From positions 1,612,001-1,676,000 of the forward strand of contig NZ_CP128187.1 in NCBI RefSeq assembly GCF_035207705.1: 64,000 nucleotides of DNA, read 5' to 3'. Source of the DNA: Maribacter sp. BPC-D8 (GTDB lineage Bacteria; Bacteroidota; Bacteroidia; Flavobacteriales; Flavobacteriaceae). Below are positions 59,242 through 64,000 of the stretch, piece after piece (position 1 is the first letter of the stretch; the number at the start of each line of letters is the position of its first letter). The notes beneath the pieces were generated by a model. That model searched no databases. It was not told the origin of the DNA and worked only from the letters and a program-made list of their open reading frames with translations. Position numbers and translations under genes: made by a program.

Positions 59242-61356
59242 ATGCGATTTCAGCTTACCCCATTACTAATATTAATTGGTTTCCAAATCACCATTGCACA
59301 AAGTAATACTGAACGTTCTAACGACTCCATCTTATCGCAGCAATTAGATGAAGTAATAGTTACTGCCACTAGAACCGAACGCCAATTATCATCGTTACCC
59401 CTGCCCGTTACGTTAGTAGGTAAAAAGCAAATTATAAAATCGGGTACCGTACGCTTAAACGAAATACTTAATGAGCAAACAGGTATTATAACTGTAGCTG
59501 ATGAAAGCGGATTTCAAGGGGTACAAATACAAGGTATAGCATCAGACTATATTCTTATACTTATTGACGGTGTTCCGCTAGTGGGTAGAAGTGCCGGTAA
59601 TTTTGATTTAAGCCGACTTACTGTTGCTAATATCAAACAAATTGAAGTAGTCAAAGGTCCCGCGAGCAGTTTATACGGCTCTGAAGCCTTGGGCGGCGTG
59701 ATAAATATCATCACTGAGAAACCTAAAACAGAAGACCTAAACGGTAATGCATCCTATAGAATAGGAAGTTTTATGCAACAAGATATTAACCTAGATTTAA
59801 AGCAAGGATTTAAAAAGTTTCGCTACGGATTCTTTGCAAACCGATTTTCATCCAACGGATATGACCTAAATGAAGAAACAGAAGGGCAAACCGTAAATCC
59901 GTTCACGAACTATACTTTAAACGGAAGGGTGTATTATGATTTTAATGATAAACTATCCCTCTTCACATCTGGGCGGTTCTATGACCAAAATCAAGATGCA
60001 GGTTTCACGGTAGACAGTATACAATACCAGGGCGACACGAAAGAACGCGAATGGAACGCACATGCAAGACTAGATCATAAATGGACCCCAAATCTCACCA
60101 TGGCATATGAGCTATATTATACCAATTACGTTGCCACCGAATTATTAGCAGATCCCATTTCAACCGATGTGCTCAGTGATAGCGATTTTAATCAACAACT
60201 ATTTCGCCCAGAGGTACGCGGTAGCTATTCATTTTCAACTGCAGACGATAATAATACTGGGTTTGAAAATGGAACTTTAACCGCCGGATTAGGATTACAA
60301 GTAGATGAATTAGACAGAACCTACTTTGATGAGACGGTTAATTTCACCTCTGAATACGTATATGCGCAATACGATTTTAACCCTATTGAAAAACTAAATG
60401 TTATTGCCGGTGCCAGGTTTGACAATCACTCTGAATATAACAATCAATTCAGTCCGAAATTAGCATTGCGCTACCAGTTAAACGAGAACCTAGCTATTAA
60501 AGGATCAGTAGGCTACGGTTTTAAAGCACCAGATTTTAGGCAGCTGTATTTTGACTTCACCAATTCTGCCGTTGGCTATACCGTATTAGGTTATAATGTT
60601 GCTCTAGATAAATTGCAAGAATTAGAAACGCAAGACCAAATTCTTAGCGTGCTCGTTACCGATGAAGACCTTAGCAAACCTTTAGAAGCAGAAAGTTCTA
60701 TTGGCTACAATTTAGGTTTTAATCTAAAACACGGTCGCGGTAACACCGAAGTAAATTTCTTTAGAAATGATTTTAAAAATTTAATAGATACCCGCATAAT
60801 TGCCCGTAAGACCAACGGACAAAATGTGTTCAGCTATATGAATTTCGATGAAATATACACAACAGGTTTCGAAATCAACTCTGCCTATAAACTGACCAAC
60901 AACCTAAATATAAGTGCCGGATACCAATTGCTCTATGCTTTTGACAAACAGAAAAAACAAGATGTAGCAGATAACCAAGTATTTGTACGTGATGCAACAA
61001 ATGGGCAATCGGTCGTACTATCAAAATCTGACTATTTTGGGTTGGTCAATCGCTCTCGCCACAACGCTAATTTTAAGGTTTACTATGATTTACCTAAGGC
61101 AAACACCAATGTAAATATGCGTGTTCTGTACCGAAGTAAATATGCGCAATATGACACCAACGGCAACGGACTCATAGATAGTTTTGACTCCAGTTTCATT
61201 GATGGGTTCGTAACTGTAAATGCAGCGGTGAGCAAAACATTTTATCAAGATTTTACACTACAGGTAGGTGCCAATAACCTTTTGGACTATACCGATAACA
61301 ATATCCCGACAATGCCGGGAATTCAAGCATACGTAAAACTTAATTATCAATTCTAA
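59242..61356 (+). CDS. TonB-dependent receptor (haem/siderophore type)
   Basis: A 704-residue outer-membrane receptor. It has a signal peptide (ending near TIAQ), the TonB-box-like DEVIVTATRTERQ, and a plug domain (about 45-150: LIDGVPLVGRSAGNFDLSRL, GPASSLYGSEALGGVINI). A 22-strand barrel ends with aromatic YQF. It is not SusC-like, since there is no N-terminal carboxypeptidase-like domain. A HmuY-family gene follows at 37 bp, so haem or iron-porphyrin uptake is the likely role. Confidence 0.92.
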   Translation: MRFQLTPLLILIGFQITIAQSNTERSNDSILSQQLDEVIVTATRTERQLSSLPLPVTLVGKKQIIKSGTVRLNEILNEQTGIITVADESGFQGVQIQGIASDYILILIDGVPLVGRSAGNFDLSRLTVANIKQIEVVKGPASSLYGSEALGGVINIITEKPKTEDLNGNASYRIGSFMQQDINLDLKQGFKKFRYGFFANRFSSNGYDLNEETEGQTVNPFTNYTLNGRVYYDFNDKLSLFTSGRFYDQNQDAGFTVDSIQYQGDTKEREWNAHARLDHKWTPNLTMAYELYYTNYVATELLADPISTDVLSDSDFNQQLFRPEVRGSYSFSTADDNNTGFENGTLTAGLGLQVDELDRTYFDETVNFTSEYVYAQYDFNPIEKLNVIAGARFDNHSEYNNQFSPKLALRYQLNENLAIKGSVGYGFKAPDFRQLYFDFTNSAVGYTVLGYNVALDKLQELETQDQILSVLVTDEDLSKPLEAESSIGYNLGFNLKHGRGNTEVNFFRNDFKNLIDTRIIARKTNGQNVFSYMNFDEIYTTGFEINSAYKLTNNLNISAGYQLLYAFDKQKKQDVADNQVFVRDATNGQSVVLSKSDYFGLVNRSRHNANFKVYYDLPKANTNVNMRVLYRSKYAQYDTNGNGLIDSFDSSFIDGFVTVNAAVSKTFYQDFTLQVGANNLLDYTDNNIPTMPGIQAYVKLNYQF

Positions 61357-61393
61357 CCCACCTGACAACGCGCAGGTTTTAATCACATTTACC

Positions 61394-62020
61394 ATGACGA
61401 AGAACATTTTAGCAGTAGCATTTTTAGCGGTAGCATTCGCTTCTTGTAGCAACGATGATGACAGTACACCAGTAGAGCCAATACAAACCGAAACGGTAAG
61501 CAACCTATATGCTCCACAAACAGGAGGGCAAGGACAACCTGTTGGCGGAGCGTTTACAAAGTTTGATTTTGAAACCAGCTTAGAGACCACAAGCGACACT
61601 GATTGGGATGTTGCATTTAGGGGTAGTACTATTGCCATTAACGGTGGCGCTGTAACAGGTACCGAAGATGAGCCAGAAAGAAACGGAAATGTTGGTGTCG
61701 CCGAAGTAACAGGTACTTTGGCAAGTGTAACCACAGCAGACGATCTCACTTTTAACCAAGATGCAGATGCATCATTTGCCATAGCAACAGGTAGTGATAA
61801 CGGTTGGTACAACTACGCAGGCGACCCAACTCATTTAATTACGCCTATACCAGGTAAGGTGTTTGTATTTAGAACTACAGCTGGTAATTATGTCAAAGTA
61901 GAGATTATTAGCTACTATGAAAATGCCCCTACTGAACCAGATGCATTTACAGATGCTACACCATACTACACCTTCAACTATGTTTATAACCCTAACGAAG
62001 GGGAAACTTCTTTTGAGTAG
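61394..62020 (+). CDS. HmuY family haem-binding lipoprotein
   Basis: A 208-residue lipoprotein (lipobox FASC followed by an Asp-rich stretch). The HmuY-family pattern is clear: FTKFDFETS, SDTDWDVAFRGSTIAINGG, and later GWYNYAGDPTHLITPIPGKVFVFRTTAGNYVKVEIISYYEN. Family members such as P. gingivalis HmuY capture haem and hand it to a TonB receptor. It lies 37 bp after that receptor and is followed by a terminator. Confidence 0.92.
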   Translation: MTKNILAVAFLAVAFASCSNDDDSTPVEPIQTETVSNLYAPQTGGQGQPVGGAFTKFDFETSLETTSDTDWDVAFRGSTIAINGGAVTGTEDEPERNGNVGVAEVTGTLASVTTADDLTFNQDADASFAIATGSDNGWYNYAGDPTHLITPIPGKVFVFRTTAGNYVKVEIISYYENAPTEPDAFTDATPYYTFNYVYNPNEGETSFE

Positions 62021-62220: not shown

Positions 62221-62453
62221 CAATTGTTACCAAAAATACTAAACAACTTTTTCAGAAACTTCAAAATTCTGCAAATGGAATTAACTATTCGAGATTAAAA
62301 GGGTTGAATTTGAATTTATTGAATACAAAGATTGCGTATGGACTTCCTACTCGAACGTAATCTGAACGAAGAAGGACTTTTGAGCAAGTTTACGCAGATG
62401 GACTTCACTCGCGCGGAATTAATAGGACGTAGTAATATATATTTCAAAGTTTT

Positions 62454-62633
62454 ATGTTTATACCCGTTTTCACCTTACTCACACTTACGATAATAGCATT
62501 AACTATATTTGTAATTAAAAAAAAAGATAGAAGAACTACAATCATTATTGGCAGTATATTTCTTGGAATCTTACTATTGATAGGTCTGTTTATTATGTTC
62601 GTTATAATTCAGTTCGGCAGAGGTTGGGGTTAA
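62454..62633 (+). CDS. Small two-helix membrane protein
   Basis: A 59-residue ORF (MFIPVFTLLTLTIIALTIFV ... FGRGWG). It has two hydrophobic helices (about 2-21 and 30-53) joined by a basic KKKDRR turn, a topology that fits an inner-membrane protein. There is no recognised family. It lies alone between imperfect hairpin regions, like a cassette. The pattern of hydrophobicity supports it as real, but its size leaves doubt. Confidence 0.5.
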   Translation: MFIPVFTLLTLTIIALTIFVIKKKDRRTTIIIGSIFLGILLLIGLFIMFVIIQFGRGWG

Positions 62634-62979
62634 ATACTTAATATTAGTGTTGAGAAAAGTACTTTTGGTAACAAAACCTAAACGTAATGCGGACTTGGGA
62701 CTAAAACGAAAGGTCTGTGTATATTTATAATGTCGCTAAATCTTATTGATTTAGCTTTGGATAAGAAAAATAAAACTAAACAATAAGCTTTAGCTTCGTG
62801 CGTAGACGGAAACGAAAAGTTTCCATGCCACCGCACTACGCTTAGCTAAAACGTTACCTGCAAGCTAAAAAAAGCCAGCCGCACAAATAGCACATTTGGT
62901 TTTTGCCGACACACGAGCCAAAACTTAAAAAACCAAAAGAGCTATTTTTTGCCAACCCAGATGAGATTAAAATTAAAAT
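62634..62979. other. Gap upstream of the terminal NTPase gene
   Basis: A gap of 346 bases with no ORF of note. It contains the attC-like hairpin at 62779-62855 and a GC-richer stretch (about 62865-62930) directly before the NTPase gene. Confidence 0.55.
62779..62855. other. attC-like imperfect hairpin (possible recombination site)
   Basis: Three paired blocks form a bulged stem: TTTAGCT / AGCTAAA, GCGTAG / CTACGC and GGAAAC / GTTTCC. The loop is GAAAA and an 11-base asymmetric bulge lies on the right. The stem is bounded by AAC at 62779 and GTT at 62853. The length of 77 bp and the shape resemble integron attC sites, although the RYYYAAC and GTTRRRY boxes are not exact. No integrase is in the window. 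Confidence 0.4.
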
Positions 62980-64000
62980 ATGAGTAAAGAAATAGTATCT
63001 GCAAGCGGAGAAAGAGCAGCAATGGGTGGTTATTTGCCTCAATTTGATGAGTTCGCTTGGTTTGTCTATTTGAATCTAATAAACAAAAAACTTGAATGGA
63101 TTCGAATAGCAGACCCCAAAGCTGAGAAACTAGATGACATTCAGTATTCAACTCATTCAGAAATTCATGCCTATCAAGTAAAATGGACTATTGCTGATGC
63201 GAATATTTCATTTGCAAACTTTACTGATTTACTACCATTAATCGCTTCTAGTTGGAAAAATTTAAAAGCAGTTAATCCTAGCAAAAAAATAATCCCTCAT
63301 TTAATCACTAACAAACCAACTTCCTCCAATGACAGCTTGAAGGATGACAACGCAAAAAAAATTGGTTCATTTGAAGACTTTATTTCTGAAGTTTGGGTGA
63401 AGATCAAATCGAATCAATCTTTTGATGACAAATGGAACCCAATCATTGCAGAACTCAAAAAAACTTCAGCTCTTACTGAATCCGAATTTGAAGAATTTAT
63501 CCATTACTTTGATTTTCAACCAGATTACAAACAGAAGCAATTTAATGTAAGAAATACTAAATACTCTAAAGAAGACGAAGACCTTCAACAGATTAGCAGA
63601 TTTATTATTGAAAAAGTTGCCAGTCCAGAAAGATCAGTTGAATTCAATCGTCAAGAAATTATTAAAGAATTAGGATGGTCTGACAGATTTAAAACCATAT
63701 TTAATCATGAATTAATAGTTGATAGACGAAGTTACCAGCCTATCCAATCAACAATTGACTTATTAAACGCAAAGTTAACTGAACATAAAAATGGATATCT
63801 ATTTTTACAGGGAGGCCCAGGTTCTGGTAAATCTACCTTATTAAACCAGTGGTCTAAAGGGTTAAGTCAACGAATTGTAAGATATTTTGCATTTGACTTT
63901 GTTAATCCCTCTTCAAATTTGAACTTTCATGAAAGAGGAAATGCTACCCATCTCTTTTTTGATTTGGTTTTCCAATTAAAAGAAGCGGGCATTTATAAAA
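62980..64000 (+). CDS. Putative nuclease-STAND-type NTPase, 5' part (candidate defence gene)
   Basis: The frame is open for 340 codons from ATG 62980 to the window edge. The N-terminus (about 1-100) has GGYLPQFDEFAWFVYL, then Asp52-Asp53 and HAYQVKW (Gln66-x-Lys68). This is an acidic and QxK arrangement like PD-(D/E)xK nucleases of the DUF4297/Cap4 or Avs kind. A helical linker follows. Walker A is FLQGGPGSGKSTLL (Lys284). The layout nuclease plus P-loop NTPase fits anti-phage STAND-type proteins. The C-terminal sensor and remaining motifs are outside the window, so the family is inferred. Confidence 0.65.
   Translation, partial: MSKEIVSASGERAAMGGYLPQFDEFAWFVYLNLINKKLEWIRIADPKAEKLDDIQYSTHSEIHAYQVKWTIADANISFANFTDLLPLIASSWKNLKAVNPSKKIIPHLITNKPTSSNDSLKDDNAKKIGSFEDFISEVWVKIKSNQSFDDKWNPIIAELKKTSALTESEFEEFIHYFDFQPDYKQKQFNVRNTKYSKEDEDLQQISRFIIEKVASPERSVEFNRQEIIKELGWSDRFKTIFNHELIVDRRSYQPIQSTIDLLNAKLTEHKNGYLFLQGGPGSGKSTLLNQWSKGLSQRIVRYFAFDFVNPSSNLNFHERGNATHLFFDLVFQLKEAGIYK

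Follow-up and report, generated by a model that had tools for sequence, protein, structure and literature searches.

An AVAST-like nuclease-STAND receptor gene, probably carried as an integron-type cassette, in Maribacter sp. BPC-D8

Introduction

The closest described relatives of the protein considered here are the Avs receptors of the AVAST systems. According to excerpts of three papers, Avs1-4 cut DNA and recognise the terminase, the portal or one further phage protein, terminase elicits a response from EpiAvs1, and SeAvs3 tetramerises on its ligand, which activates its nuclease (PMC12799240, PMC12931631, PMC11291478). We analysed a stretch of 64,000 nucleotides from Maribacter sp. BPC-D8 (contig NZ_CP128187.1, positions 1,612,001 to 1,676,000 of the forward strand; hereafter the window), at the edge of which lies a gene for a large protein combining a nuclease domain with a STAND NTPase. 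We consider it very probable that the product is a single-protein, AVAST-like immune receptor and that its gene is carried as an integron-type (attC) cassette, the second of a long array, which would have moved as a unit. Our loci and genomes are denoted by L and G numbers; a coordinate in L003 plus 55999 gives the window position.

Results

Domains and Active-Site Residues

A preliminary description of the window, made from its letters alone, had an open reading frame (ORF) running off the edge from 62980 with 340 visible residues, and this is what the sequence holds: the part within the window (62980..64000, + strand) comprises the first 340 of 2,024 codons and is open at the edge. Extended past 64000, the gene runs on to 2,024 amino acids as one intact ORF (G000:C1:1674980-1681054 in the source genome). 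The protein begins with a nuclease head, followed by a NACHT/STAND NTPase, helical repeats and a terminal domain; the broad AVAST-type layout of N-terminal effector, STAND NTPase and C-terminal sensor is thus present in one protein and in this order, the role of sensor being suggested by analogy with Avs3.

The Cap4/PD-(D/E)xK nuclease domain (residues 1-235; 62980..63684, + strand), delimited by predicted fold and alignment, contains D52, D53, Q66 and K68. Behind it stands the Walker A motif GGPGSGKS of the NTPase (residues 278-285; 63811..63834, + strand), found by Pfam and alignment, and the IIDGLDH motif (residues 377-383) lies past the window edge; Pfam places NPHP3_N and NACHT above cut-off inside residues 268-452. 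The nuclease residues and the Walker A motif are exactly where the preliminary description had put them, and they are conserved in 71 full-length relatives, aligned from focal ORFs of more than 1,850 and fewer than 2,110 residues (L001, L005, L057, L062, L093, L094 and L096 were excluded by name). D52 is found in 71/71 rows and D53 in 70/71 (one gap), Q66 in 68/71 (two serines, one gap) and K68 in 69/71 (one arginine, one gap), while G278, G281, G283, K284 and S285, as well as D379, G380, L381 and D382, are each present in 71/71. Since these residues are near-invariant in rows from several phyla, they reflect more than chance.

Structure prediction gave a Cap4-type PD-(D/E)xK fold for residues 1-235, for which the best solved match is Avs3 (SeAvs3, PDB 8DGC); together with the NACHT match this bears out the proposed fusion of a nuclease to a STAND/NACHT NTPase. 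Avs3 is also the best solved match of the modelled last third of a 78%-identical Psychroflexus homologue, where helical repeats lead into the terminal domain; the sensor part aligns with Avs3 at 9% identity. Structure alignments took the loci from a scan of GTDB representatives plus the window sequence, with L021 excluded. Searches by sequence were less telling: Pfam gives no Cap4 match for the protein's own N-terminus, and PF14130 is matched by 4 of 62 family members (best 7.2e-4), with the unrelated Baculo_E25 matched by 5 of 62 at a similar level, so that Pfam alone leaves the nuclease undecided. A whole-protein search of solved structures returned P-loop or weak matches only, and the nuclease profile found 8zue weakly (E 0.09), ranked below a ZapA match. 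Pfam matched neither a SAVED domain nor a protease domain in the protein. A housekeeping ATPase was rejected on the Pfam, PADLOC, NCBIfam and solved-structure searches.

Kinship to AVAST Types 1 and 3

Neither PADLOC nor NCBIfam calls the protein by any of its models. The best PADLOC match is Avs1b at 7e-42, confined to residues 261-588, with a weak match to mad8 besides; the best in NCBIfam is the Avs1b equivalog NF041810, at 110.9 bits against a cut-off of 1500 and over the NTPase region only. The PADLOC Avs3 models gave no match at E up to 1, and PDLC02167 is absent from the genome.

We used hhalign to compare profiles of 71 family members, 117 Avs1b proteins and 8 Avs3a proteins, and an Avs2 profile built from proteins matching Avs2 models. 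The family aligned with Avs3a over residues 56-2011 against 62-2056 (probability 99.8) and with Avs1b over 262-1617 against 213-1586 (1,262 columns, probability 100), whereas Avs3a against Avs1b reached a probability of 22.7. The family against Avs2 gave 74.1, over 119 NTPase columns, and Avs3a against Avs2 gave 92.0, over 434 columns at the C-termini; in the controls, reversed profiles stayed at 0.3 or below and mismatched segments at 1.0 or below. By segment, probabilities against Avs3a were 96.8 for the nuclease, 98.0 for the NTPase (E 3e-13), 71.5 for the repeats, and 95.1 for the last 595 residues, the last 345 alone giving 3.5; against Avs1b they were 100 for the NTPase (E 1e-38), 96.0 for residues 700-2024, 0.2 for the last 345 alone and 0.1 for the N-terminus.

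On the NTPase tree, Avs3a and Avs1b each form one fully supported group on a long branch, and the deepest forks of the family, including L062 and L096, are weakly placed. With three groups and a midpoint root the tree gives no sister grouping, and we dropped a pairing of the family with Avs1b, which such a root cannot show. Judged by profile, this appears to be an AVAST-like family intermediate between types 1 and 3; we file it under neither, because it aligns with both, whereas there is hardly any alignment between Avs3a and Avs1b themselves. It thereby offers an explicit bridge between two AVAST types.

The Gene in an attC-Like Array

Just upstream of the gene lies a 186-bp attC-like site that begins with AAC and ends with GTT (62670..62855, + strand), identified by repeat models and folding; its bottom strand, folded as DNA, has a z of -6.18, and that of a second site beyond the gene (L003 13188-13375) a z of -3.1. 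Between them they bound a cassette of 6,519 bp on the + strand, starting at 62853 and ending at L003 13375 after site 2, so that an attC-like site with complementary junctions stands at each border of the gene. The preliminary description had called the region palindrome-rich; it is so because of these attC-like repeats. Its further description as gene-poor is true of the final ~1 kb ahead of the gene and fails beyond the window edge, where the DNA is gene-dense: all 39 ORFs of at least 120 residues in ~46 kb (L003 6600-53003; a longest-first, non-overlapping pick) are on the + strand.

The repeats used for the models measure 124-190 bp, start with AAC (one with ACA) and end with GTT. Searching 133 kb with three repeat-type models brought up 29 copies (E at most 1e-3), some of them weak or partial; all are on the + strand and within L003 6671-63345, the other ~76 kb giving no match. 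The rule for integron cassettes is that the sequence following the GTT of one site pairs with that preceding the AAC of the next. Complementary runs of at least 8 (core included) were found for 8 of 14 consecutive pairs of copies as against 7 of 385 non-consecutive pairs. Runs are 0-6 long in the remaining six consecutive pairs, and 8 long in the pair that bounds the receptor gene. The median spacing of attC ends is 964 bp, compared with 6,519 bp for the cassette of the receptor gene; a further three spacings are above 4 kb, and undetected sites may be concealed in them. The array genes are mostly small, and L003 15849-31920 has one weak attC match only. Rfam returned nothing at gathering scores for the gene and its flanks.

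Homologous genes in other genomes share these boundaries in part. Conservation with Psychroflexus curvus (L010) and Marinifilum breve (L029) takes in about 126 bases ahead of the start codon and about 130 past the stop codon, and it breaks off at GTT and at the start of the attC. The 5' junction is found again in L010, L029, L027 and L017, in which other Bacteroidota families are represented. By eye, an attC follows the gene in L010, L015 and L029, and sites are present on both sides in L010 and in Cruoricaptor (L015); L029 has none before the gene, and Flexithrix (L027) and a metagenome-assembled genome (L017) have the 5' junction and no clear downstream attC. Within the conserved leader, a hairpin followed by a T-run (62885..62947, + strand; arms 62885-62904 and 62928-62947) occurs here and in nine relatives. 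Its pair changes are not above those of shuffles; the cassette may carry it as a terminator or attenuator.

The array borders on a genus-shared flank (59242..62020, + strand) that encodes a TonB-dependent receptor (59242-61356) and a putative lipoprotein (61394-62020). Some match to the flank is present in 27 of 36 genus genomes, and 14 rows, including our own, span nearly the whole query at 72-100%. Among the 26 other genomes of the genus that match the flank, six were compared with our locus: their variable stretches past the receptor and lipoprotein genes share repeats with it, and all six have matches to the attC models. Colinearity with congener L149 stops at 62226..62228 (+ strand), a putative first junction, perhaps attI-like, where a 10-nt run that includes GTT and the left end of the first attC-like site are complementary; the other five congeners lose colinearity 140-200 nt earlier. 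When the flanks were tested for complementary ends, 10-nt runs also appeared in L041 and L081, possibly by chance. The first cassette holds, by eye, a small membrane-like ORF of 59 residues (62454..62633, + strand).

Distribution of the Family

In a search of 5.8 billion proteins, 156 of the 7,979 candidates scored were relatives; 106 of the 120 relatives listed have 2,000-2,050 residues and the remainder are shorter. The scan of GTDB representatives yielded 485 pattern-matching stretches, 270 of which code for a relative (E at most 1e-3), and the loci studied were the best 80 of these 270. Rows of the tree come from Bacteroidota, Pseudomonadota, Planctomycetota, Chloroflexota, Actinomycetota, Cyanobacteriota, Verrucomicrobiota and others. 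Presence is patchy: among 60 related genomes searched only our own has the gene, and none of 35 congeners does; in a draw from the phylum it is found in 4 of 395 genomes including our own, and G314, one of the four, matches across the NTPase region only. A distant enterobacterial relative of L006 is present in 11 of 5,426 E. coli genomes. Matches occur in 43 of 72,556 plasmid records, many of them partial and some of them Avs1b, with six covering at least 80%. No relative was found at 1e-10 in 50,697 phage records, and three are encoded in viral contigs. Two short forms, L072 9962-12493 (843 residues) and L075 777-3224 (815 residues), consist of nuclease and NTPase with hardly any sensor and may be truncated.

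Avs3 has a small partner gene, Avs3b. In the scan of neighbours, which covered the 80 genome loci and counted genes of at least 100 residues, we found no recurring partner: no neighbour family was present at more than 9 of the 85 loci, and its positions were scattered. PADLOC hits among nearest and farthest neighbours (137 and 110 proteins, from complete ORFs of 120-900 residues) speak neither for nor against defence-island enrichment. The family is not named in the titles or abstract openings returned by a literature search whose scope did not include the primary AVAST papers (Gao 2020, 2022). What emerges is a widespread receptor family without a name in either annotation library.

Different AVAST receptor types adjoin one another at two of the loci. 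In Chryseobacterium luquanense an Avs3a gene divergently adjoins a family member (L023 3517-9777), and an Avs2 gene directly follows one at L054 16437-20564. At L031 4513-9967, a metallo-β-lactamase (MBL) gene and a gene for an Avs2-like protein, whose head has a weak protease-type match, lie directly upstream of a family member.

Discussion

The anti-phage role proposed in the preliminary description is supported, by analogy with the Avs proteins. The conserved phage protein bound by the C-terminal helical repeats and terminal domain would most probably be the terminase large subunit; binding would let the NACHT/STAND ATPase oligomerise, as in the SeAvs3 tetramer, and the oligomer would pair the N-terminal Cap4-type nuclease domains, leading to a double-stranded DNA cut that stops the infection, with the cell likely sacrificed. 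Terminase is our best guess at the ligand because both terminase-sensing types have folds or sequence in common with the family, and we lean slightly towards it.

Other accounts of the receptor were considered. Its collinearity with Avs3a and the best fold matches at both ends are what a true, highly divergent Avs3 (AVAST type 3), acting exactly like SeAvs3, would show; this is unlikely, as no Avs3 sequence model matches, the NTPase is closer to Avs1b than to Avs3a, and in the C. luquanense genome the Avs3a model picks the divergent neighbouring gene and not that of the family. It is possible, though doubtful, that the protein is an Avs1-like receptor whose protease/MBL effector was swapped for a fused nuclease and which otherwise senses what Avs1 senses. 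Avs1b is the best match in both annotation libraries and aligns over 1,262 columns, and a Bacteroidia metagenome sequence (L062 8103-15058) carries an Avs1-like effector on the family's body: its N-terminus is trypsin-like (Pfam E 0.0018, below cut-off) and similar to the Avs1b head at 1.6e-8, the MBL gene upstream is similar to Avs1a, and its STAND and C-terminal regions match the family at 29-30% over 239-1314 and 1447-2007. Its BLAST match to Avs1b stops at residue 683. Against this account, similarity to Avs1b is lacking across the last ~400 residues of the family, and L062 is one metagenome sequence, whose protein, used as a query, recovered only itself and the partial matches P0002 and P0242. 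The low identity of the sensor to that of Avs3 would also suit a nuclease-STAND protein that senses something besides phage packaging proteins, such as a plasmid, stress or host factor; given that, in the excerpts cited above (PMC12799240, PMC12931631), what Avs1-4 sense is terminase, portal or one further phage protein, we think this improbable. An AVAST-like receptor of neither type remains our preferred reading.

As to its mode of carriage, the repeats might be ordinary dispersed intergenic repeats, the gene having arrived by transposon or island recombination. Several observations favour this and weigh against a cassette. No integron integrase was found near the array in our genome (TIGR02249 at best 79.9 bits against 265), and the four places with PF00589, three of them above cut-off, are not near it; nor is there a remnant of the congener integrase described below in the region at E up to 1. 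The attC sequences differ among genomes with homologous cassettes, which simple cassette transfer leaves unexplained; the close relatives L011, L013, L016 and L020 have neither leader nor junction, and L012 and L018 share the leader and have no junction. We nevertheless judge dispersed repeats very improbable in view of the complementary junctions, the single strand on which all repeats and genes lie, the conserved body that stops at GTT in other genera, and, in a congener, the presence of an integron-type recombinase beside the shared flank. This recombinase is a protein of 375 residues encoded between flank and repeats in G023 (L145 15566-16693); in L010 one of 388 residues, 37% identical to it, is encoded ~4 kb upstream. 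NF040815 ('tyrosine recombinase/integron integrase') accepts both, and TIGR02249 neither (204-205 of 265 bits). Bacteroidota are among the phyla listed with integrons in an excerpt of PMC8618304. As it has no integrase nearby, we read our own array as a CALIN, an attC cluster without integrase, and its second cassette as the carrier of the receptor gene.

L062, a single protein, shows an effector head exchanged on a common body; nuclease-protease pairs have repeatedly been acquired by unrelated systems, according to an excerpt of PMC12799240. A 2,024-codon receptor in a cassette is unexpected, because a review, in the part consulted, describes integron defence genes as streamlined to a small size and larger multi-gene systems such as CRISPR-Cas and BREX as absent (PMC12409362). 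A 6.5-kb cassette whose 5' junction recurs across Bacteroidota families fits badly with that rule, and this makes a testable claim; its second position in the array would favour expression if a cassette promoter exists. The evidence seems to us evenly balanced for the wider proposal, in which Bacteroidota integrons would exchange a complete giant receptor as a single 6.5-kb cassette, breaking the size limit, and the family would be a surviving link between AVAST types 1 and 3, with heads traded on a shared STAND-sensor body.

Comparison with Known Systems

With Avs3 (SeAvs3, PDB 8DGC) the family shares an N-terminal Cap4-type nuclease, a STAND NTPase, helical repeats and a similar C-terminal fold in a single large protein of ~2,000 residues, but it matches no Avs3 sequence model and has an NTPase closer to that of Avs1b. 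With Avs1b it is collinear in the NTPase and helical region (family residues 262-1617), whereas its nuclease is fused, Avs1 having a trypsin-like protease and a separate MBL nuclease, and its last ~400 residues are unrelated by profile; upstream of the gene stand an attC-like site and the 59-residue ORF instead of the MBL gene of Avs1. Unlike the Cap4, DUF4297, LmuA and Hachiman nuclease group, the family has no SAVED match, and its nuclease is fused to a STAND sensor. Finally, the locus resembles the defence cassettes found in chromosomal and mobile integrons by Darracq 2025 and Kieffer 2025, as described in an excerpt of PMC12409362, in that a probable defence gene fills an attC-bounded cassette, and differs from them in that the cassette here extends over 6.5 kb, holds 2,024 codons and belongs to a member of the Bacteroidota.
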